From positions 80,793 through 130,075 of the forward strand of contig JALEUV010000024.1 of assembly GCA_022780515.1 (NCBI GenBank): 49,283 bases of DNA, read 5' to 3'. The notes beneath the pieces are model-generated. The model did no database searches. It saw only the letters and a list, made by a program, of their open reading frames with translations, and was not told the origin of the DNA. The DNA is from Anaerococcus sp. Lineage in GTDB: Bacteria > Bacillota > Clostridia > Tissierellales > Peptoniphilaceae. A program made the position numbers and the translations under genes. This document shows, in pieces, positions 19,062 through 33,224 of the stretch (the first letter of the stretch is position 1; each line of letters begins with the position of its first letter).

Positions 19062-19664
19062 ATGCTTTATAATTTTTTTGTTGCAATTTTAAAGGTTATT
19101 TTATTGCCATTTTTTAGGGTAAGGGTAGATGGAATAGAAAATTTGAAGGAAGATGAAAACTTTATAATTTGTGCCAACCATAAGTCAAACTTCGATCCCT
19201 TTCTCTTAGCCCTAGTCTTACCAGTTAGAATTCACTTTATGGCTAAAAAAGAACTATTCGAAAATCCTCTCTTGGCAAAACTCTTAAGCTCTGTAGAAGT
19301 ATTTCCAGTAGATAGGCATGGAAAAAATATGAAATCTCTTAGATTTTCTTTGAAACTTGTCAAGGAAGGCAAGACCCTGGGCGTATTTCCAGAAGGAACG
19401 AGAGTAAAGGAGACCAAGAGGGAAAATATGAAGGAGGGGGTAGCCTTTTTGTCCTTAAAGGGGAAGGCAAATATTTTGCCAGTGGAGCTTATATCTACCT
19501 ATAAACCCTTCAAAAAGTCCTACATCCATGTCCATGAGATGCTTAGGGTAGAAGATTACTTGCACCTTGATAATAAAACAGCCATGAAAAAAATAGAAGA
19601 TGATGTATTTGAAGCCATCTATAAAGATCATTATGTAGAAGAAGGGGAAAATAAATGGAAATAA
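19062..19664 (+). CDS. plsC: 1-acyl-sn-glycerol-3-phosphate acyltransferase
   Basis: NHKSNFDPFLL (HX4D-like) and FPEGTR motifs. Confidence 0.92.
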   Translation: MLYNFFVAILKVILLPFFRVRVDGIENLKEDENFIICANHKSNFDPFLLALVLPVRIHFMAKKELFENPLLAKLLSSVEVFPVDRHGKNMKSLRFSLKLVKEGKTLGVFPEGTRVKETKRENMKEGVAFLSLKGKANILPVELISTYKPFKKSYIHVHEMLRVEDYLHLDNKTAMKKIEDDVFEAIYKDHYVEEGENKWK

Positions 19665-21721
19665 TAATAGCCAGGTACTCAGGTTTTTGTGGGGGAGTGA
19701 GAAGAAGTGTCAACCTCGCCGATGAAGCAATAAAAAATAATAATGAGGCCTATTGCGTTGGTCCTTTGGTTCATAATCCTCAACTAGTAGAAAATTTTGA
19801 AGAGAAAGGACTCAAAGTAATTGATAAAGATGAGGCCCTTCTATTAAAAAACTCCACGATTTTAATAAGGGCCCATGGAGAAAGCGCAGAATTTAAAGGA
19901 AAACTCCAAGAAAACAACAATACAGTAGTAGATGCGACTTGTCCCCATCTGATGAATATTTATGATAAGATTATTCAGAAAGAAAATGAGGGCTACCAGG
20001 TAATAATTGTTGGAGATAAAACGCATCCTGAAATTATTGCTATGGACTCTTACTTAAAAAATGGTATAGTTATATCAGATGAGACTGAAGCAAAAAATGT
20101 AAAAGGATATGTCAAACTTTATGTGGTAAGCCAAACCACAAATAGGTTTGATTATTTTTATGATATTGCTAACAAGTTAAAAGAAAATAATGATAGTGTA
20201 GTAATAGAAAACACAATATGCAAGGCAACTGAAAATAGGCAACAGGCAGCCAAATCCTTAAGTGAGGAAGTTGATTGTATGATTGTAGTTGGTGGTTTTA
20301 ATAGTTCTAATACGAATAAGCTATATCAAGTAGCTAAAATGAATTGTAATAATGTTTTTAGGATTGAAACTGTTAATGAACTACCTTTGCAAAAGCTCTC
20401 TAAATTTAAAAAAGTAGGAATAATCGCAGGTGCCTCTACACCTGATGAGATTATCGAGGAGGTAGTAAGTAGTATGGATGAATTCACAAATGAAGAATTT
20501 ATGTCAAGTCTAGAGGATAGTTTGAAGAAGGTATACCCTAAGGAAATAGTAAAGGGTACTGTAATTGATGTTAAGGAAGATGAGGTATTCGTTGACATCC
20601 AATTCCGTGCTGATGGTATCATCAAACTAGATGAAATGACAGAAGAAGAAAGAGAAAATCCAAAAAACAGCTTTAATGTAGGCGATGAAATTGATGTATA
20701 TGTTATCAAACTAGATGATGGTGAGGGTAATGTATCTCTATCAACAAGAAGAGTCAAAGGAATGAAAGTTTGGCAAGAATTAGCTGAAAAAGCTGATAAT
20801 GAGGAATTAGTTCACGGTGAAGTTGTAGGTGCTAACAAGGGTGGACTAACTGTTAATGTGAATGGAATTAATGGTTTTATTCCAGCAAGCCAAATCGCAA
20901 CATATTTCGTAAGGAACTTCAAGAAATTTGTCGGAGAAGTTTGGGATCTTAAGATTATATCTATCGATGAAAGAAAAAATAGACTAGTTCTTTCTAGAAG
21001 AAAAGTAGTTGAAGAAGAAACTGATGCTAAATGGGAAGACCTAGAAGAAGGCCAAGTAGTTACTGGTAAGGTTGCTAGACTAACTGACTTTGGAGCTTTT
21101 GTTGAAGTTAATGGTCTTGACGGTTTACTTCACGTGTCAGATATAGCATGGTCTAGAGTTGAACACCCATCTGATGTCCTAAATGTAGGAGATGAAATCG
21201 AAGTTAAGATTCTAAGACTTAACAAAGAAAAGAATAGAATATCTCTTGGACGTAAACAACTTCTAGAAAAACCATTTGAAGCTTTCGTAAATCAACACGA
21301 AGTTGGTAGTGTTGTGACAGGAAAAGTTGTTAACCTACTAGACTTCGGTGCTTTTGTAGAAGTCGCTGATGGAGTAGAAGGACTTGTTCATGTATCAGAA
21401 ATTTCTTGGGATCATGTAGAAAAACCATCTGACGAACTAAACATTGGTGATGAAATCGAAGTTAAAATCATAAGCATCGACCGAGAAGAAGAAAGAGTTG
21501 GATTGAGCATTAAGGCTCTAAAGGAAGCTCCAGAAAGACCTGAGAGAAGACCTAGAAGAACTCAAAGAAATCAAGAAAGGCCAAGAAGAAGAGTTGAAAG
21601 AGAAGAATCTTACAACCTAGGTGATGATGATTTAAATAATAACCTTGGAAATCTCTTAGAACAAGCTCTATCTGACAAGGGACTTCTAGATAGCAACGAA
21701 TCTTCTTCTGAAGAAGAATAA
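19655..21721 (+). CDS. ispH: IspH-RpsA fusion: HMB-PP reductase domain followed by S1 RNA-binding domains
   Basis: SGFCGGVRRSV, VDATCPHLMN, TTNRFDYF (IspH), then several S1 repeats (GKVVNLLDFGAFVEV..GLVHVSEISW) in one frame. Confidence 0.93.
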   Translation: MEIIIARYSGFCGGVRRSVNLADEAIKNNNEAYCVGPLVHNPQLVENFEEKGLKVIDKDEALLLKNSTILIRAHGESAEFKGKLQENNNTVVDATCPHLMNIYDKIIQKENEGYQVIIVGDKTHPEIIAMDSYLKNGIVISDETEAKNVKGYVKLYVVSQTTNRFDYFYDIANKLKENNDSVVIENTICKATENRQQAAKSLSEEVDCMIVVGGFNSSNTNKLYQVAKMNCNNVFRIETVNELPLQKLSKFKKVGIIAGASTPDEIIEEVVSSMDEFTNEEFMSSLEDSLKKVYPKEIVKGTVIDVKEDEVFVDIQFRADGIIKLDEMTEEERENPKNSFNVGDEIDVYVIKLDDGEGNVSLSTRRVKGMKVWQELAEKADNEELVHGEVVGANKGGLTVNVNGINGFIPASQIATYFVRNFKKFVGEVWDLKIISIDERKNRLVLSRRKVVEEETDAKWEDLEEGQVVTGKVARLTDFGAFVEVNGLDGLLHVSDIAWSRVEHPSDVLNVGDEIEVKILRLNKEKNRISLGRKQLLEKPFEAFVNQHEVGSVVTGKVVNLLDFGAFVEVADGVEGLVHVSEISWDHVEKPSDELNIGDEIEVKIISIDREEERVGLSIKALKEAPERPERRPRRTQRNQERPRRRVEREESYNLGDDDLNNNLGNLLEQALSDKGLLDSNESSSEEE

Positions 21722-23277: not shown

Positions 23278-24258
23278 ATGAAAGATGTAAGTGTGAAAGC
23301 AAAAGCGAAGATGGGAAAGCTCCCCACAAGGGATCTATACGATAAGTTGATTTCCGATACGTCATTAGAAAATAAAAAAGAATTATTAAACCATAAGTAT
23401 CCTTTTTTGAAAAATGTAAACACCAAGAAGGAGATGGAAGCAGGATTTTTTAATAATTTCTATACAGAGCTTAGAAGTATAGACTTTTTTCTAGGAGGTA
23501 TTGAAAGTCAATTTTTCAAAAATTATTTTTCGATATATGAGATCTACCTAATTCAAAAAGTTATCCAATCTATAGTTCATCATAGGCTGGAAAAAAATAT
23601 CCTGAATTTGCTCCATGATCCTTTTTCTAAAAACCTCCATATAAAAATAGGTATGGACCTTAAGGATTTTATAGAAGGTCTTAGGACTAGTCGTTATTAT
23701 AGGACCCTGCTTCCCTTTGTTAACGAAAATATGGACGAAGATGCCCTAATCTTTTTATCATCTAATGCCTTAATGAAATTTTATTATAGGGATTTATTGA
23801 AGCTTTCTAAGGAATTTAAGGGGAAGGAAAAGTCTTGGATAAAAGAGCTCTTGGGAGAGCAGATTAACCTAGCTAATTTTGAGATGGTTTTCAGGCTCAA
23901 AAAATTCTTTAAGTTAAATAATAATGAAATATTTAATTATTTAATTGAAGGAGGCAGGGGCTACAATGCCGAGAGACTAAAGCAATTAGCCAATATGCCC
24001 CTTGATGACTTCTTGGATAGGCTCAATCAAAGTAAGTACAAGGGAATATTTGATAGGGCAGAATTTTCTCATATAAAGATTAAGGAAAGAATGGCAAAAC
24101 TTTATATGTCTGAAATAAGAAAGCAAAGATCTGACATTCTTTATGTAATTTCTGTTATGAGTTTAATCCGAATTCATTATGAGAGCTTGGTAGGTATTCT
24201 AGAAATAGATGAGACCTTGGCAATGTCGGACAGGTATGATTTAGTAATAGGAAGGTAA
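23278..24258 (+). CDS. ntpC: V-type ATP synthase subunit C (AC39/d-like)
   Basis: AC39-like helical protein at head of V-ATPase cluster; start set at 23278 after AAGGA. Confidence 0.8.
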   Translation: MKDVSVKAKAKMGKLPTRDLYDKLISDTSLENKKELLNHKYPFLKNVNTKKEMEAGFFNNFYTELRSIDFFLGGIESQFFKNYFSIYEIYLIQKVIQSIVHHRLEKNILNLLHDPFSKNLHIKIGMDLKDFIEGLRTSRYYRTLLPFVNENMDEDALIFLSSNALMKFYYRDLLKLSKEFKGKEKSWIKELLGEQINLANFEMVFRLKKFFKLNNNEIFNYLIEGGRGYNAERLKQLANMPLDDFLDRLNQSKYKGIFDRAEFSHIKIKERMAKLYMSEIRKQRSDILYVISVMSLIRIHYESLVGILEIDETLAMSDRYDLVIGR

Positions 24259-24260
24259 GT

Positions 24261-25142
24261 ATGGCTGTAGAAAAAATGTACCTAGTTAATATAGCATCTC
24301 ACCTAGAAAATCTAGATGATTTTTTGGAAGATGTAATTAAGATAGGCGATATAGAGGTTGTTGATGCCTTTAATCAATTAGCATCAAGATCCTTTCAAAT
24401 AAGGGCAACTAGGGAGAATGTAGAACTTACAGAAGATGTTTCAACAATTTCATCTTTTGATAAGGACAACAAAAAAGCAAGTGAAAACCTAAGGGTCATC
24501 AGTGATCTTTTTAAGGTTTCTGATGATAATGTAAGGGATAAGTATATCTCTAAGGAAAATGTCCAAAAGATTTACTCAATCCTAGAACCCCTAATTGAGA
24601 AAAAAGAAGAGCTTATTAAAGAGCGTGAGAAGCTAATGGCCTACAAGGAAAACTTGGAGAGCCTAGATAGCTTTGGAATTGATATAAAAAAACTTAATAA
24701 TCTTAACTACTTCGATTACCGATTTGGTGACGTAAGCAAAGATGGAAGATTCATACTAAAAAATAATTATGAAAATCTACCATCTTTAATTTTGCACCTA
24801 GATAAATCTTTGGATGACCTATCTCTTGGCTATTTAAATCAAATCATAGCCCTAGATGAGGAAACTACAGATCTTAGGGATGCTACAGATAAGATTATAG
24901 AAAGTGAGAAAGAAAACACCCTAAGGGTTCTAAATGACTATAATAGAGAATATCAAATAGAAGCCAAGAAAAAAAGTGAAGAGATTTATATCTCTATTCT
25001 AAATGAAGCTGAACAAAAGGGAGAGGAAATTTATAAAATCTACAATGAAAAGAAGAAAGACCTTGACAATAAGTACAAGGAATTTAGGGATATCATAGTA
25101 GATGAAATTTTCGATTTAATAGTTAAAGGAGGGGATATATAA
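24261..25142 (+). CDS. V-type ATP synthase subunit I N-terminal part fused to G/H-like coiled coil
   Basis: MAVEKMYLVNIASHLENLDDFLEDVI matches subunit I N-terminus; residues ~183-293 are a charged coiled coil (AKKKSEEIYISILNEAEQKGEEIYKIYNEKKK...VDEIFDLIVKGG) resembling peripheral-stalk G/H. Confidence 0.75.
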   Translation: MAVEKMYLVNIASHLENLDDFLEDVIKIGDIEVVDAFNQLASRSFQIRATRENVELTEDVSTISSFDKDNKKASENLRVISDLFKVSDDNVRDKYISKENVQKIYSILEPLIEKKEELIKEREKLMAYKENLESLDSFGIDIKKLNNLNYFDYRFGDVSKDGRFILKNNYENLPSLILHLDKSLDDLSLGYLNQIIALDEETTDLRDATDKIIESEKENTLRVLNDYNREYQIEAKKKSEEIYISILNEAEQKGEEIYKIYNEKKKDLDNKYKEFRDIIVDEIFDLIVKGGDI

Positions 25143-26513
25143 TTGGCAGATAAGGTTATAAATAGCGATAGCAAAGAAAATTATTTGTTAGTTTATCCTA
25201 ATAAGGTTAAAGAAGATATTAATAGAGCTATAAATACCATGGGTTTTATAGACAAGGAAACTCCTGAAACCTATGATCTTGAAACAGTAAATAAAAAATT
25301 AGAAGAAACTAATAAAGAGATAGAAGAACTAGAAGAAGAAATTGAGCGATTTAAGAAAGAAAATCTAGACTTGATGGAAGAAATTCCCTACACCATTGAT
25401 TATTATGAAAAAAGCTCAGCCCTCAAGGAAAAGATGGCCAAGGGAGACAAGTACTTTTACCTATCCGGCTGGGTTCCAGAATCTAGGGTAGATGATTTTG
25501 AAAAGCTCGAAGAAAAATATGACCATACCAAGGTAAATGTAGACGACAAGGTTGTTAATAAAAAGCCTCCTACCAAACTTAGGAACAATAAAATATTTAG
25601 GCCCTTTGAGTTTTTGGTAAATATGTACGGCTCACCAAATTATAACGAGATCGATCCTACTCCATTTTTTGCAATAACCTATATGCTCTTGTATGGAATG
25701 ATGTTTGGAGACTTGGGCCAAGGGCTAGTTTTTGTTGGACTAAGCTTTTTCGTTGACAAAATCAACAAGGTATTTGGTCAATTACTTAGAAGGATAGGAA
25801 TTTCTGCTTCGATTTTTGGTCTAATGTATGGATCATTTTTCGGTATAGAGACTCTTATACCTACCCTACTTATTAAGCCATTTGACAATATTATGACTGT
25901 CCTAGTTGCATCAGTTGCCTTTGGTTTAATTCTTATGATTATATCCTATATTTTGGGAATTTATAACAAGGTAGTCAAACAGGAAAATATTGAAGAGGGG
26001 ATTTTTGGGAAGGAAGGTCTGGCAGGCCTTATGATGATGATCTCATTTATCCTTATTATCTTAAATATAGTAGGGGTAAATCCTCTGCCAATGGGGTTAG
26101 GACTAGGACTTTTGATATTATCAATTGTCATGATTATCTTTAAACAACCTATAGCAAGAAAGCTCACCAAAACTCAACCCCTTTATGATGCTCCAAAGGG
26201 AGACTACTATGTAGAATCATCCTTTTCTATTGTAGAAGCCTTACTTTCTGTATTTTCAAACCTAGTTTCTTTTACTAGGGTAGGGGCCTTTGCAATAAAC
26301 CACGTGGGACTTTATATGGCCTTTGAGGTTATGGCAAATCTTGCCGGTGGTGGTCTAGTCAGTACTATTATTTTAATCTTGGGAAATATTCTTATAATAG
26401 GACTTGAAGGAATGATAGTATTTATCCAAGGCTTAAGACTAGAATTTTATGAAATGTTTAGCAAATATTATGAAGGAAATGGTCGTAAATTTAGACCAAT
26501 CAAGGAAAATTAA
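25143..26513 (+). CDS. ntpI: V-type ATP synthase subunit I, remainder of cytoplasmic domain plus membrane domain
   Basis: TTG start preceded by AAAGGAGG; FFLSGWVPE-like FYLSGWVPESRVDDFEK, DPTPFFAITYMLLYGMMFGDLGQG, SFTRVGAFAINHVGL; same reading frame as preceding ORF. Confidence 0.88.
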   Translation: MADKVINSDSKENYLLVYPNKVKEDINRAINTMGFIDKETPETYDLETVNKKLEETNKEIEELEEEIERFKKENLDLMEEIPYTIDYYEKSSALKEKMAKGDKYFYLSGWVPESRVDDFEKLEEKYDHTKVNVDDKVVNKKPPTKLRNNKIFRPFEFLVNMYGSPNYNEIDPTPFFAITYMLLYGMMFGDLGQGLVFVGLSFFVDKINKVFGQLLRRIGISASIFGLMYGSFFGIETLIPTLLIKPFDNIMTVLVASVAFGLILMIISYILGIYNKVVKQENIEEGIFGKEGLAGLMMMISFILIILNIVGVNPLPMGLGLGLLILSIVMIIFKQPIARKLTKTQPLYDAPKGDYYVESSFSIVEALLSVFSNLVSFTRVGAFAINHVGLYMAFEVMANLAGGGLVSTIILILGNILIIGLEGMIVFIQGLRLEFYEMFSKYYEGNGRKFRPIKEN

Positions 26514-26522
26514 GGAGTTTGT

Positions 26523-26957
26523 ATGATTGTAAAAATAGCATTATTAGCACTAGCTGTTGTCATTATGACAATTTATTCAGGTTTATACTTATTAAAGAAC
26601 AATGATGATCCATCCAAGGCAAAAATTAAAAAAGCCTTGAAGTTAAATTTATTCACCTTTGTACCAATTATGGTAATGGTGGTAGTTTTACTCTTCCCTA
26701 CAGTAAGCTCTAGGGCAGCAGAAGTAGAAGCAGCTGCAGCAGCATCAAGTGATGGTCTCAAATATATAGGAGCTGCCCTTTCAACTGGTCTTGCTACAAT
26801 AGGTACTGGTTATGCCGTAGGTACTGTAGGTTCAGCAGCCCTTGGAGCAATTAGTGAAGACCAATCTATACTTGGTAGAACAATAATCTTCGTAGGTCTT
26901 GCTGAAGGTATAGCTATCTTTGGTGTAATCATCTCTATACTTATTCTTTACGCATAA
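26523..26957 (+). CDS. ntpK: V-type ATP synthase subunit K (proteolipid)
   Basis: YIGAALSTGLATIGTGYAVGTVGSAALGAISEDQSILGRTIIFVGLAEGIAIFG. Confidence 0.93.
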   Translation: MIVKIALLALAVVIMTIYSGLYLLKNNDDPSKAKIKKALKLNLFTFVPIMVMVVVLLFPTVSSRAAEVEAAAAASSDGLKYIGAALSTGLATIGTGYAVGTVGSAALGAISEDQSILGRTIIFVGLAEGIAIFGVIISILILYA

Positions 26958-26958
26958 A

Positions 26959-27198
26959 ATGAGGGCAAAGTTAATAAGCACAGATCCTAGTTTGAACTTG
27001 ATGTTTAGGCTAGGAGCCATAGAGACAGAGCCAGTAGGCGATAGAGATTCTATACTTAAAGCCTTCAAGGACTCTATAGAGGATGAGGGAATAGCTCTCT
27101 TGATCCTCACGAAAAAAGTGTATGAGGCAATAGGAGATGATGTGGACTACGTAAGGAGTCAGTCTACTAAACCTCTTATTGTTGTAATTGATGGCTGA
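26959..27198 (+). CDS. ntpG: V-type ATP synthase subunit F (short form)
   Basis: 79 aa; position between K and E; AIETEPVGDRDSILKAF..ALLILTKKVYEAI..KPLIVVIDG. Confidence 0.75.
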   Translation: MRAKLISTDPSLNLMFRLGAIETEPVGDRDSILKAFKDSIEDEGIALLILTKKVYEAIGDDVDYVRSQSTKPLIVVIDG

Positions 27199-27209
27199 TT
27201 GGAGGAGAA

Positions 27210-27815
27210 ATGCTCGATATTGAAGCTAAATTATCATCCTTTAGAAAAATGGTTTGGGGTGAAGAAAAAGAACAAAGCGAGGAAGAATTATACAAGTCTA
27301 CAGAAATTAATTCCAAGATTGTTAAAGATAAAAAGCTTGAACTAGATCAGAAGCTAAAGGAAAGAATCAGGGATAGGGAGGCCTTTGCAAAATCAAAGAA
27401 AAACGAGAGGCTTTCAAAAAAAGAAGCAGATGCCAAAAATAATATTTACGTCCATAGGCAATTTTTGGTAGAAGACTTGTACAAGAGGATTATGGAGAAC
27501 TTAAGAGCTTATACAGCAAGTGATGCCTATAAAACAAATCTTAACTCTAATATAAAAAACTCTATCAAAAGTCTAAATTTAAATGAAGAAGACCTCATTA
27601 TAGGGGTTGTGGGAAAAGACTTAGATGAGGTTGATTTTACTAACAAAGAAGCCATTCCTAACGAATATATAGGTGGCTATATCATTTCAAATAAAGATAG
27701 AGAATTTAGATATAATTTTACTTATTTAAATAAATTGAACGAGAAAAAATATGAAATTGGTAAGAGGTTGAACGAACTTCTTGAAAGTGAGAGTTTTAAT
27801 GAATCCAAAAATTAA
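27210..27815 (+). CDS. ntpE: V-type ATP synthase subunit E
   Basis: Coiled-coil N-terminus plus globular C-terminus; position upstream of subunit A. Confidence 0.75.
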   Translation: MLDIEAKLSSFRKMVWGEEKEQSEEELYKSTEINSKIVKDKKLELDQKLKERIRDREAFAKSKKNERLSKKEADAKNNIYVHRQFLVEDLYKRIMENLRAYTASDAYKTNLNSNIKNSIKSLNLNEEDLIIGVVGKDLDEVDFTNKEAIPNEYIGGYIISNKDREFRYNFTYLNKLNEKKYEIGKRLNELLESESFNESKN

Positions 27816-29553
27816 AACAATTAATGGACCTGTAGTAATAGCTGATAATGCTGATGCTCTAAGCATAAGGGAGATGGTAAGTGTAGGAGGGGCAAAACTT
27901 ATTGGGGAAGTAATTTCTCTAGAGGGCGACCTTGCTACTATCCAAGTCTACGAAGATACTTCAGGTCTTAAGGTAAATGAGGAAATAATTCCAACAGGTA
28001 GGCCACTTTCTGTAAGACTTGGCCCTGGTATGATTGGAAATATGTTTGATGGTATCCAAAGACCACTAAAATCTATAATGGATAAAAATGGAGCCTTTAT
28101 TCCAGCTGGAATTGGATTTGAAAATATAGATACAGAAAAGCTATGGGATGTTAAATTAAAGGTAAAAGTTGGAAATATAATCTCCCTAGGCGATATATAT
28201 GCTACAATCGATGAGAGCCAAACTATAGAGCATAGGCTCCTATCAGATGTTAAGGGGACCATTGTAGAAGTAGCTAAGGATGGCAAATACAAGTTAGAAG
28301 ATACCATAGTCAAGGTAAAAGATGATAAGGGCAATATAAAAGATCTCAAGCTCTACCAATACTGGCCAGTAAGGAAGGCCCGTCCAGTAAGGTCCAATAT
28401 GCCTATCAAGAAACTCTTGCAAACTGGTCAAAGGGTCCTAGACATATTTTTCCCTATAGCCAAGGGCGGTACTGTGGCTATACCTGGAGGTTTTGGTACA
28501 GGAAAAACCATGCTCCAACACCAACTAGCCCAATATAGTGATGTAGATATCATTATCTATATAGGCTGTGGTGAGCGTGGTAATGAGATGACCCAAGTCC
28601 TTGAGGAGTTCCCTGACCTAATCGACCCTAATACAGGCAAGGGACTTATGGAGAGGACTATCCTTATAGCAAATACATCTAATATGCCTGTTGCTGCAAG
28701 GGAAGCTTCTATCTATACTGGAATTACCATAGCAGAATATTTTAGGGATATGGGCTATGATGTGGCCTTGATGGCAGATTCTTCATCAAGATGGGCAGAG
28801 GCCCTCAGAGAAATATCTGGTAGACTTGAAGAAATCCCTGCTGAAGAAGGCTATCCAGCTTATCTAGGATCAAGATTATCCCAATTCTATGAAAGGGCAG
28901 GCTACGTTACAAACCTAAATGGCAGCGAAGGATCAGTTACCCTAATAGGGGCAGTAAGTCCGTCAGGAGGTGACTTCTCAGAGCCAGTTACAGAAAACAC
29001 TAGAAGGTGTGTCAATGTATTCTTGGGTCTTGATAGGAAACTTGCCTATTCTAGGCACTATCCAGCCATAAATTGGCTTACATCTTACTCTAAGTATATA
29101 GATCAAATTGGGGACTTTTACCAAGAAAGAATCGGCAAGAATATCGTAGGTCTTCGTAATGAACTTATGGATATTTTGCTTAAGGAAGATGAAGTTAGAT
29201 CAATTATGATGCTAGTTGGAGAAGATGCCCTATCTGATAAGCAAAAAAATATCCTAGATGTAGCTACCCTAGTAAGGGTTGGCTTTCTCCAACAGAACGC
29301 CTACAATGACATAGACAAGTATGTCCCTCTAGAAAAGCAAGTAAAGATGCTAGAGAGCATCTATAATTATTACAAAAAATCAGAGTCAGCTTTGGATAGG
29401 GGACTAAGTTATGATAGGATTTATGACCCTAAGCTTATAAATGATCTAACCCAAATGAAATATAATATCAAAAATGATGAGTTAAATAACTTTATAGACT
29501 TAGATTCTAAAGTTAATAACCATTTTGAAAGATTTAATGAGGCGAATAGATGA
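27799..29553 (+). CDS. ntpA: V-type ATP synthase subunit A (catalytic)
   Basis: [70 protein letters not shown]; start set at 27799. Confidence 0.96.
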
Positions 29554-30914
29554 GAAAAGAATACACAAAAATTAAAAAAATTGAATCATCTATGATAGAA
29601 ATAGAAAAGGTAACAGATGTTGCCTACAAGGCTGTAGTAAGCCTTCACGCCCTAGGCAGGGACTTTGTAGGTCAAGTTATAAAGATCGATGAAGATACTG
29701 TAACTATAGAAGTTTTTGGTAATACAGAAGAATTTTCACTTAATGATATAGTGGTTTCTTTTGAGGAAAAACCCCTAGAAATTCCACTAAATGAAACTAT
29801 CTTGGGTAGGACTTTCAATGGAATAGGGGAACCTATAGATAATGGTGGTCAAATCTATTCAGATAAGACCTATTCTATAGAAGGCCTTCCATTAAATCCT
29901 GTGGCACGTGAATACCCTAGGGACTTTATCCAAACAGGCATATCTTCAATAGACGTTCTTACAACCCTAATCCGTGGTCAAAAACTCCCTATATTTTCTG
30001 GATCAGGCCTTAGCCACAACCAAATAGCAACTCAAATAGTTAGACAAGCCAAGCTCAAAACCGACGATGATTTTTGCTTTGTCTTTGCTGCCATGGGAAT
30101 CAAGAAGGATGAAGCCATGTTCTTTGAAGATTCTTTCAACAAGGCGGGGGTTAGGGACAAGGTAGTCATGTATGAGAATTTCGCAGACTCACCTATTATG
30201 GAAAGACTTATTGCACCCAAATGTGCATTGACAGCTGCAGAATACCTAGCCTTTGAAAAGGGCTACCATGTTCTTGTCCTTATAACAGATATGACTTCCT
30301 ACAGCGAAGCCTTGCGTGAAGTGTCATCTATTAGGGGTGAGGTACCATCAAGGAAGGGCTACCCTGGCTACCTATATTCTGACCTTGCATCCATATATGA
30401 GAGGGCAGGGATGATAGAAGGGGTTGAGGGATCAGTTACCCTTATTCCAATCTTAACTATGCCAAATGATGATATAACCCACCCAGTAGCAGACCTTACA
30501 GGCTATATTACTGAGGGACAAATTGTAATCGATAGGCAACTATCTAACAAGGGAATATATCCACCTATCAATGTCCTCCCTTCCCTATCTAGACTTATGA
30601 AGGATGGTATAGGGGAAGGCTATACAAGGTCAGACCATGAGGACCTTATGAATCAACTCTACGAATCCTATTCCAAGGTTCAAGATGTAAGAAATATAGC
30701 ACAGATAGTTGGAGAAGACGATTTGTCAGATACTGATAAAAAATACCTAGAATTTGGAAGTGCCTTTGAAAATAAATTCTTGTCCCAAGACCAAAATGAA
30801 AATAGAGAACTTGACGAATCTCTTGACCTAGGTTGGGATATCTTAAAAATTCTACCAAGAACTGAACTTCACAGGGTTTCTAAGGAAAACTGTGATAAAT
30901 TTATAGGTGATTAG
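29550..30914 (+). CDS. ntpB: V-type ATP synthase subunit B
   Basis: [52 protein letters not shown]. Confidence 0.96.
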
Positions 30915-31547
30915 ATGGAAACCAACAAACTATCAGCAACTAAAGCAAATTTATTGAAGGCCAAAGAAGAGCTAAAGCTCCTAAGTGGTGGCTATGAAAT
31001 ACTCGATAAAAAACGCAAGGCCCTCATGAAGGCCTACGATGATAAGGTCAAAGACCGTAACAGTCTCAATGAAGAAGTAAATAAGACCCTGTCTAATATA
31101 AAGGAAAACTTTAAGAGGGTCATGATTACCCTAGGAGAGGCAGACCTTGATTCGATTTCGAGGTCTGTGCCAATTGATAATTCATTGGAGATTACTAGCA
31201 GCAAGTTTATGCAAACAGAGATTAGTAAGATTGAATTTGAGGAAGTAGGCCTAAACCTTTCATATTCCTTCTATGAAACAAATGCAGCCTTTGACCTAGC
31301 CATCCTAAGCTTTAACACCTTGAGGTCAAAAATTTTTAAATTAGCGGAGCTTGATACTACAATCACTTCCCTAAACAACGAAATATCAAAGACTAGCAAA
31401 AAAGTTAATTCTTTGGAGAAGGTTCAAATTCCAAAGTACAAGGAAATAATAAAAACCATATCTCAAAGCCTTGAAGAAAAGGAGAGGGAAGACTTTTCAA
31501 AGACAAAAATTGTCAAGGAAAATAAAATTAAAAAGCAAAAAAATTAA
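30915..31547 (+). CDS. ntpD: V-type ATP synthase subunit D
   Basis: LSATKANLLKAKEELKLLSGGYEILDKKRKALM. Confidence 0.93.
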   Translation: METNKLSATKANLLKAKEELKLLSGGYEILDKKRKALMKAYDDKVKDRNSLNEEVNKTLSNIKENFKRVMITLGEADLDSISRSVPIDNSLEITSSKFMQTEISKIEFEEVGLNLSYSFYETNAAFDLAILSFNTLRSKIFKLAELDTTITSLNNEISKTSKKVNSLEKVQIPKYKEIIKTISQSLEEKEREDFSKTKIVKENKIKKQKN

Positions 31548-31583: not shown

Positions 31584-32972
31584 TTATGCTGAAATATCTT
31601 CTTTTTCAGCTTTCTTCATATATTGGTAAATCTTGATGGCTATGGCCATTTCTATTCTCTTTCTAAAGATCTTGCAAGAAAATTCGTAGGTATTGTTTAT
31701 ATCCCCTGTAGCGTTGTAGGAATTGGCTGCACAACCTCCTGAGCAGTACATATTGGCCCAGCAAGACCTACATTCTTCCTTAGAATAGCAATTACATTGT
31801 TTAAATTGATCCACTAGGTCAGATCTTTTTATCCCTTCATTTAAGTTACCTATGAGAAAATCTTCATTGCCTACGAATTGGTGGCAAGGATAAAGGTCAC
31901 CTGTAGGTGTTACTGCCATATATTCTGTACCAGATCCACAGCCTGATATTCTCTTGTGGACACAAGGACCATTTTCTAAATCTAGCATATAGTGGTAGAA
32001 GATAAATTCATCATCATTATCAATTTTTTCCATCATCATATCTGCCAATTTTTCGTATTGGTCATAGATTGTATCTAGGTGTTCATCCCTTAGGGCGTAA
32101 GGCTCGTCAGGATTACCTACAACTGGCTCTAGAGAAGTTCTATTGAAACCTAGGTCTAGGTAGGTTTTGATGTCTTCTGTAAAATCTAGGTTGTTGGCTG
32201 TGAAGGTTCCCCTCATATAGTATTCCTTATCGCCACGTTTTTTAACAAAATTTTGAAACTTTGGCACTACTGTATCATAAGATCCCTTACCAGCTATAGT
32301 TTTTCTAAAGGCATCATGTTTTTCCTTCCTACCATCTAAGGATAGGACTACATTTTTCATATTTTCATTGAGGTAGTCGATCACCTCATCATCTAAGAGC
32401 ATCCCGTTTGTAGTGAGGGTAAAGTTAAAGTGCTTGTTATATTCTTCTTCCTTGGATCTCGCGTAGTCTACGGTGTCTTTTACTAGGTCAAAGTTTAGTA
32501 GGGGTTCCCCACCAAAAAAGTCAATATCTAAATTGTAGTGGCTACCAGAGTTTTCTATAAGGAAGTCTATGGCAGACCTTGCCACATCCTTTTTCATAAT
32601 GGCATCAGGGCCATGGTACTTGCCACCCTTGGCGAAGCAGTATTCACAAGAAAGGTTGCAGGTGTGGGCAACATTTAGGCAGAGGGCCTTGATTTGGGTA
32701 GGTCTATTTACTATATCTATAGCAAGGTCCTTGTAGATATCCTCTGAAAATAAGAGGCCTTCGTCTTCTAGGTCCTTAATTTCTTGGTAGACTGCTTCAA
32801 ATTCATCATCAGTAAGGTTATATCTTTCTGTAATAATTTCTCTTATATGGTCTTTATCATTATCTTCATATAATCCGATAGTATCATAGGTTACATCGTC
32901 AACAGCGTGGACTGAACCGCTATATATATCTAAAACAATATTAAATCCATGGGATTTGTATTGGTGAATCAT
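31584..32972 (-). CDS. scfB: SCIFF (ranthipeptide) thioether-forming radical SAM/SPASM maturase
   Basis: CNLSCEYCFAKGGKYHG radical SAM motif, SPASM cysteines (CNCYSKEECRSCWANMYCSGGC), adjacent SCIFF precursor. Confidence 0.92.
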   Translation of the reverse strand: MIHQYKSHGFNIVLDIYSGSVHAVDDVTYDTIGLYEDNDKDHIREIITERYNLTDDEFEAVYQEIKDLEDEGLLFSEDIYKDLAIDIVNRPTQIKALCLNVAHTCNLSCEYCFAKGGKYHGPDAIMKKDVARSAIDFLIENSGSHYNLDIDFFGGEPLLNFDLVKDTVDYARSKEEEYNKHFNFTLTTNGMLLDDEVIDYLNENMKNVVLSLDGRKEKHDAFRKTIAGKGSYDTVVPKFQNFVKKRGDKEYYMRGTFTANNLDFTEDIKTYLDLGFNRTSLEPVVGNPDEPYALRDEHLDTIYDQYEKLADMMMEKIDNDDEFIFYHYMLDLENGPCVHKRISGCGSGTEYMAVTPTGDLYPCHQFVGNEDFLIGNLNEGIKRSDLVDQFKQCNCYSKEECRSCWANMYCSGGCAANSYNATGDINNTYEFSCKIFRKRIEMAIAIKIYQYMKKAEKEDISA

Positions 32973-33074: not shown

Positions 33075-33224
33075 TTATTTATTTTTTTTGCTAACACATT
33101 CTTGATTAGCTACACCACAACTTGTTTTGCAAGCTGATTGGCAAGATGTTTGACATTCGCCACATCCACCGTTTTTCTTGCTCTTGTGGAGATTTCTTGT
33201 GTTTAAAGTTACAATTCTTTTCAT
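33075..33224 (-). CDS. scfA: SCIFF (six cysteines in forty-five) ranthipeptide precursor
   Basis: Manual translation: MKRIVTLNTRNLHKSKKNGGCGECQTSCQSACKTSCGVANQECVSKKNK (49 aa, 6 Cys); SD AAAGGAG; not in supplied ORF track. Confidence 0.96.
   Translation of the reverse strand: MKRIVTLNTRNLHKSKKNGGCGECQTSCQSACKTSCGVANQECVSKKNK

Follow-up and report, generated by a model that had tools for sequence, protein, structure and literature searches.

A predicted fusion of stalk subunit G with the first half of a split subunit I in a V/A-type ATPase of Anaerococcus

A V/A-type ATPase cluster in an Anaerococcus genome raises the question of how a stator is put together when subunit I is spread over two open reading frames and the gene for the peripheral-stalk subunit G is missing from the cluster. 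The cluster has the order C-ORF1-ORF2-K-F-E-A-B-D and spans 23278-31547 of the window, i.e., of the whole 49,283-nucleotide stretch of DNA analyzed here. A first-pass annotation made from the sequence had proposed that a G/H-like coiled coil is inserted in subunit I at the point where it is split, and had seen no separate G/H gene in the cluster. The latter observation held, with no separate G gene found within the cluster.

Layout of the cluster and identity of its pieces

All genes of the cluster are on the forward strand. The first encodes subunit C (23278..24258; Pfam PF01992, E 2.8e-32) and is followed by ORF1 (24261-25142; 293 aa, TAA stop) and ORF2 (25143-26513; 456 aa), which begins with a TTG start codon right after the ORF1 stop and in the same frame as ORF1. 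The Shine-Dalgarno sequence of ORF2, AAGGAGG, lies inside the 3' end of ORF1 (25126..25132), 10 nt before the TTG. Next come subunit K of the rotor ring (26523..26957; NCBIfam PRK06251, E 1.2e-18), the 79-aa subunit F (26959..27198; Pfam PF01990, E 3.5e-10), subunit E (27210..27815), subunit A (27781..29553), whose relatives are 58-83% identical and have the same place in the operons examined, subunit B (29550..30914), assigned by operon comparison, and finally subunit D (30915..31547; Pfam PF01813, E 2.8e-41). Subunit E, the presumed partner of the fused G, was missed by Pfam and was recognized through a family profile compared with solved E subunits (2dm9, E 2.9e-11). With ORF1 counted as both I and G, subunits A, B, C, D, E, F, I, K and G are thus all present in one cluster. 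The closest named relative is A. sp. AGMB09787, whose ORF1 is 97% identical.

The first part of ORF1 had been read as subunit I up to a beta-strand, and this was confirmed: residues 1-180 align over 180 columns with the complete, unsplit I of the sister genera (hhalign probability 99.9, E 1.9e-33). This part, I_N (residues 1-182; 24261..24806), has predicted strands and helices of both lobes and would comprise half of the proximal lobe, the first coiled-coil arm and half of the distal lobe. ORF2 aligns with the remainder of sister-genus subunit I (hhalign E 5e-145), resuming it at the partner strand as had been supposed. According to profile alignment and predicted structure, the cytoplasmic half of ORF2 (25143..25577) contains the distal-lobe partner strand and helix, the return coiled-coil arm and the other half of the proximal lobe; the membrane half of subunit I follows at 25578..26513 (Pfam PF01496 E 2e-25 and NCBIfam subunit I E 1.8e-54 for ORF2). 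The membrane domain (PF01496) keeps the motif SFTRVGAFA, corresponding to the invariant SFIRVGAFA of relatives, and the conserved arginine of the ion path. The two-lobed cytoplasmic arm with its coiled-coil hairpin is provided by ORF1 and ORF2 only together, and instead of one polypeptide chain there are two open reading frames in the window and in all 22 fetched relatives.

The tail of ORF1 matched the separate G of sister genera with an hhalign score of 86 (E 3.3e-15), whereas the best of 100 column shuffles reached 17 and the reversed profile 18. The match was repeated on other sequence sets (E 1.1e-14; scores of 83-86 overall, E 1e-14 to 3e-15). Against the profiles of subunits I, E and D the tail scored 10-18, none above noise, with 18 for subunit I. 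The match begins at ORF1 residue 189-192 (nucleotide about 24825), extends to the end of ORF1 and covers the free G from its first residues to its last, so that a whole G (residues about 189-293, 24825..25142 with the stop) follows a linker of about 8 residues. The linker (residues about 181-188; 24801..24824) connects the distal-lobe strand to G, aligns with neither G nor I and is predicted as coil at residues 180-185. The first-pass annotation had recognized the G-like segment of about 110 residues and placed it correctly after I_N; its start at 24807 falls in the linker, and homology to G sets in at about 24825. Whole-genome searches with the ORF1 profile, or with ORF1 itself, retrieved from many other genera the free-standing G encoded upstream of C, and the G-family profile matched solved stalk proteins weakly (chloroplast b', E 0.003; eukaryotic V-ATPase G, E 0.1). 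In addition to this homology, the segment has the one long helix of about 100 residues that characterizes G (predicted at 186-268); it is the C-terminal part of ORF1 in all fused genomes and not a separate polypeptide. Judged by these comparisons, ORF1 reads as the N-terminal half of subunit I, then a linker of about 8 residues, then a full-length G; what identifies the tail as G, beyond its coiled-coil pattern, is its homology to the free G encoded in sister-genus operons of the same type.

Coiled coils resemble one another, and the charged segment is recognized by no Pfam or NCBIfam model, which would also fit a segment native to subunit I, or an inserted coiled coil that is unrelated to G and merely similar to it. 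However, complete sister-genus subunit I runs directly from strand to strand without the segment, the full-length match to G is far above shuffles, reversal and other coiled-coil subunits, and the genomes that have the segment are precisely those that lack a separate G; we regard this reading as extremely improbable. Since ORF1 as a whole is matched by no Pfam or NCBIfam model above cut-off, automatic annotation is likely to miss the fusion.

The two-gene arrangement and its distribution

In the window and in several relatives, ORF1 and ORF2 are in frame with a single stop between them, as would be seen if the stop were a sequencing error or were read through to give I_N-G-I_C as one chain. 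The relatives argue strongly against this. Among the 22 fetched loci (20 from Anaerococcus and 2 from a sister genus), all of which show the same split, ORF1 ends with TAA, TAG or TGA, ORF2 occurs in all three frames relative to ORF1, and the two overlap, abut or lie up to 102 nt apart (the 102-nt gap being in L086), with Shine-Dalgarno-like sites before ORF2 in nearly all loci. An unbroken chain would also need to return from the far end of G, and a single-chain product is in our judgment almost certainly not made.

An 879-aa open frame in one genome (G059) had the appearance of a single-chain I_N-G-I_C, and was rejected after a TGA was found to separate the two open reading frames. In two loci (L084 and L085) ORF2 itself was broken between its cytoplasmic and membrane parts, an additional split that was also rejected: an A-run is one base shorter there than at the same site in the intact L082, and the extra breaks are most likely homopolymer errors. 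An internal start yielding a free G was dismissed as well, because no conserved start codon was found at the I_N/G boundary across the relatives. Broken reading frames were observed in drafts for both ORF1 and ORF2 of A. hydrogenalis DSM 7454 (L088) and for ORF1 of G120; these are possibly sequencing errors.

The survey of the arrangement found it in 31/31 Anaerococcus genomes and in 2 genomes of a sister genus, with the ORF1 profile matching end to end (in one of the matching genomes, G120, the ORF1 frame is the broken one just mentioned). No fusion-level scores were obtained outside Anaerococcus among 391 genomes of the class. Elsewhere in the order, subunit I is in most cases unsplit (about 645-670 aa); where a separate G was found, it has about 100-140 aa and lies some 1.4 kb upstream, giving G-C-I. 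The sister genera have the order G-C-I-K-F-E-A-B-D, while the fused clade has C-[I_N-G]-[I_C]-K-F-E-A-B-D, without G at the front. Their G (L058-L061, L063 and L064) is a full-length homologue of the fused one in an otherwise identical operon, but is a free gene of 102-119 aa before C, next to an unsplit I of 646-658 aa. No other G of the fused-G family was found in the 31 Anaerococcus genomes, where the remaining profile hits were at chance level. ORF1 remains single copy, and its G is full length in nearly all 31 genomes. The dN/dS values (G segment, 0.06-0.27; I_N and ORF2, 0.01-0.18) indicate that the fused arrangement is under purifying selection.

A G of a different kind is present elsewhere in the genome. 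A second complete V-ATPase operon, on contig C59 (L005), has its own G and its own E, and differs from the cluster in the window in its order, G-I-K-E-C-F-A-B-D, and in having a free 107-aa G, an unsplit 643-aa I and a 157-aa K. Such a second V-ATPase is encoded in 31/31 Anaerococcus genomes, in each case with a separate I gene immediately preceded by its own gene for a 107-aa G. The expectation that no separate G exists elsewhere in the genome therefore stands for the fused-G family and fails for G as such. The universal presence of the second enzyme and its G could mean that the fused G is a remnant, with the free G serving both enzymes and being the real partner of the E in the window. Against this, the two Gs differ greatly (hhalign probability 12), the fused G is full length in nearly all genomes and under purifying selection, and each operon has its own E. 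We consider this alternative very unlikely. The K subunits of the two V-ATPases are also different, with 144 aa in the window (26523-26957, matching a ~100-aa-type K model) and 157 aa in the second operon (L005:8279-8752); because the rotor subunits differ, the two enzymes may differ in ion-to-ATP ratio.

Predicted fold and proposed stator architecture

To place the split in the structure of subunit I, ORF1 was joined to residues 1-150 of ORF2, with the stop read as Gln, and modeled from a shallow alignment of 50 rows. A full-length joined-chain model was poor (pLDDT 60), and the cytoplasmic part was used instead. The joined model (mean pLDDT 79, pTM 0.58) contains the two lobes and the coiled coil, with G as a single long helix that directly follows the distal-lobe strand; it links two chains artificially, is weak at the G end and samples one G-I geometry. 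In the numbering of the joined model, and with strands assigned to lobes by strand order in subunit I, one lobe combines ORF1 strands 6-14 and 32-34 with ORF2 strands 398-406 and 424-428, the coiled coil is formed by helices 98-137 and 340-389, and the other lobe combines strands 151-157 and 176-179 with 308-313. The fused G is one helix from 186 to 268. The best Foldseek matches of the model were to subunit I/a (6r0z_N, E 2.6e-8; 3rrk, E 9e-5), with moderate TM-scores of 0.3-0.46 to solved subunit I.

In the yeast homologue, the proximal lobe comprises residues 14-53 and 331-406 and the distal lobe residues 183-256, with the coiled coil between them (PMC3470569). These boundaries, taken with the predicted secondary structure, place the split between two strands of the distal lobe. 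Stalk tips bind two different sites on the cytoplasmic domain of subunit a (PMC5758568), and the yeast model has one such site per lobe (PMC3470569); by analogy, a peripheral stalk is expected to dock at the distal lobe, the site of the split.

The arrangement may have arisen from an ancestral G-C-I-K-F-E-A-B-D operon, in which the G gene would have moved, with its own stop, into the part of the I gene that encodes a strand-loop-strand turn. A single insertion of this kind, carrying the stop, would at once fuse G to I and split I; the downstream remnant of I would then have gained a ribosome-binding site and a start codon for itself. The products would be two polypeptides, I_N-G and I_C. We infer that I_N and I_C pair non-covalently and rebuild the two-lobed cytoplasmic arm, and that G, tethered by its N-terminus at the distal lobe, pairs with E and extends with a free C-terminus up to the catalytic head. 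An unbroken I would be awkward here because G starts at the arm and ends at the catalytic head, from where the chain would have to return about 100 Å or more. Splitting I makes the tether possible, with no return chain needed. On this evidence, the enzyme is very probably a V/A-type ATPase with a rearranged stator, consisting of a two-chain arm and a tethered G.

The V/A-ATPase of Thermus thermophilus, with an A3B3E2G2 stator on I/a, has the same subunits, and its EG N-terminal tips bind the cytoplasmic domain of I (PMC5758568). There, however, G is free and I is a single chain, whereas in Anaerococcus I consists of two chains, the first of which carries G at its end. Fusion of peripheral-stalk parts is known among rotary ATPases from the N-type F-ATPases, in which b and delta are fused (PMC11738941); unlike in Anaerococcus, both fused parts belong to the stalk and no membrane-stator subunit is split. 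We found no description of an I_N-G / I_C arrangement for rotary ATPases in the open-licence literature. The joint between stalk and subunit I is poorly resolved in Thermus and is described as highly flexible (PMC5758568); in Anaerococcus, evolution would have nearly hard-wired it, and the clade gained an additional half-arm on at least two occasions. Such a tether may affect coupling, and the system makes testable whether rotary coupling needs loose joints, whether the arm of subunit I can be assembled from two chains, and what sets the number of stalks per motor.

The second stalk, duplicated half-arms and extra arms

The Thermus stator, A3B3E2G2a1, has two EG stalks per subunit I (PMC5758568), compared with the one docking half-arm offered by the enzyme in the window, whose ORF2 has a single half-arm. 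A second, untethered G might then be needed, with one stalk formed by ORF1 in the arm and the other by a second ORF1 with an idle I_N or by the free G that the second V-ATPase could supply. This proposal is compatible with the tethered-G architecture and concerns the second stalk of species with a single half-arm. The stoichiometry in Thermus, the single half-arm in the window and the lack of a conserved internal start to make a free G speak for it; nothing speaks directly against it, but duplicated half-arms elsewhere suggest a dedicated solution. We see it as a serious possibility, falling just short of an even chance.

The cytoplasmic half of ORF2 is tandemly duplicated in 7 Anaerococcus species and in the MAG S1A_St_7 (8/26 named loci), the species being A. 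nagyae, A. octavius, A. provencensis, sp. 9403502, mt242, Marseille-Q5996 and Marseille-P3625. The duplicated ORF2 has 585-687 aa, and the repeated module runs from the partner strand to the proximal lobe, with copies 33-59% identical to each other. In the tree, the copies of MAG S1A_St_7 form a group of their own (95/89), separate from the Anaerococcus copies (100/97), and the module was therefore duplicated at least twice. Copy 1 is under purifying selection (dN/dS 0.11-0.27). In two loci (L077 and L081), a long N-terminal extension of ORF2 (residues about 1-90) precedes the duplicated half-arms; that of L077 partly resembles a third half-arm copy, weakly (E 0.007).

The duplicated half-arm is most simply read as a place where another I_N-G chain could dock, and it would then explain how one fused gene supplies two stalks. 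In the A. octavius group and MAG S1A_St_7, the second I_C half-arm would thus dock a second I_N-G chain to give two tethered stalks. Subunit I of these relatives would be two-armed, with each half completed by I_N-G and both stalks covalently tied, and species with a single half-arm, including that of the window, would have one tethered stalk or a mix of tethered and untethered ones. We put this forward tentatively, both as a scheme for the two groups and for the two-armed form itself, and rate it as somewhat less than probable.

Extra arms were also found elsewhere in the order. Three genomes of one genus encode a soluble 344-aa copy of the whole I cytoplasmic domain just before the complete I (L102:3703-4737, L103:3964-4998 and the second I-like ORF of L104). 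In another family of the order, one genome (G220; L107:1778-3184) encodes a 468-aa cytoplasmic-I protein with a G-like tail, beside a free G and a full I; the tail matches G with E 2e-8 and a score of 49.8 (shuffles at most 18.7). Each extra arm copy groups with the I of its own genome in the tree (81/82 and 100/99), and these arms look like further, separate additions. The G220 protein, seen in this one genome, is an independent joining of I and G. Like ORF1, it joins I cytoplasmic sequence to a G-like tail, but it is an extra soluble whole arm with G at its end, and both the complete I and the free G are kept.

Other genes in the window include a 688-aa protein combining IspH and ribosomal protein S1 (19655-21721, forward strand), which scores above cut-off with the known bifunctional model PRK00087. 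A 49-aa SCIFF peptide with a six-Cys core (33075-33224, reverse strand) is followed by its radical SAM maturase (31584-32972, reverse strand; TIGR03974, E 5e-222), a known ranthipeptide pair.
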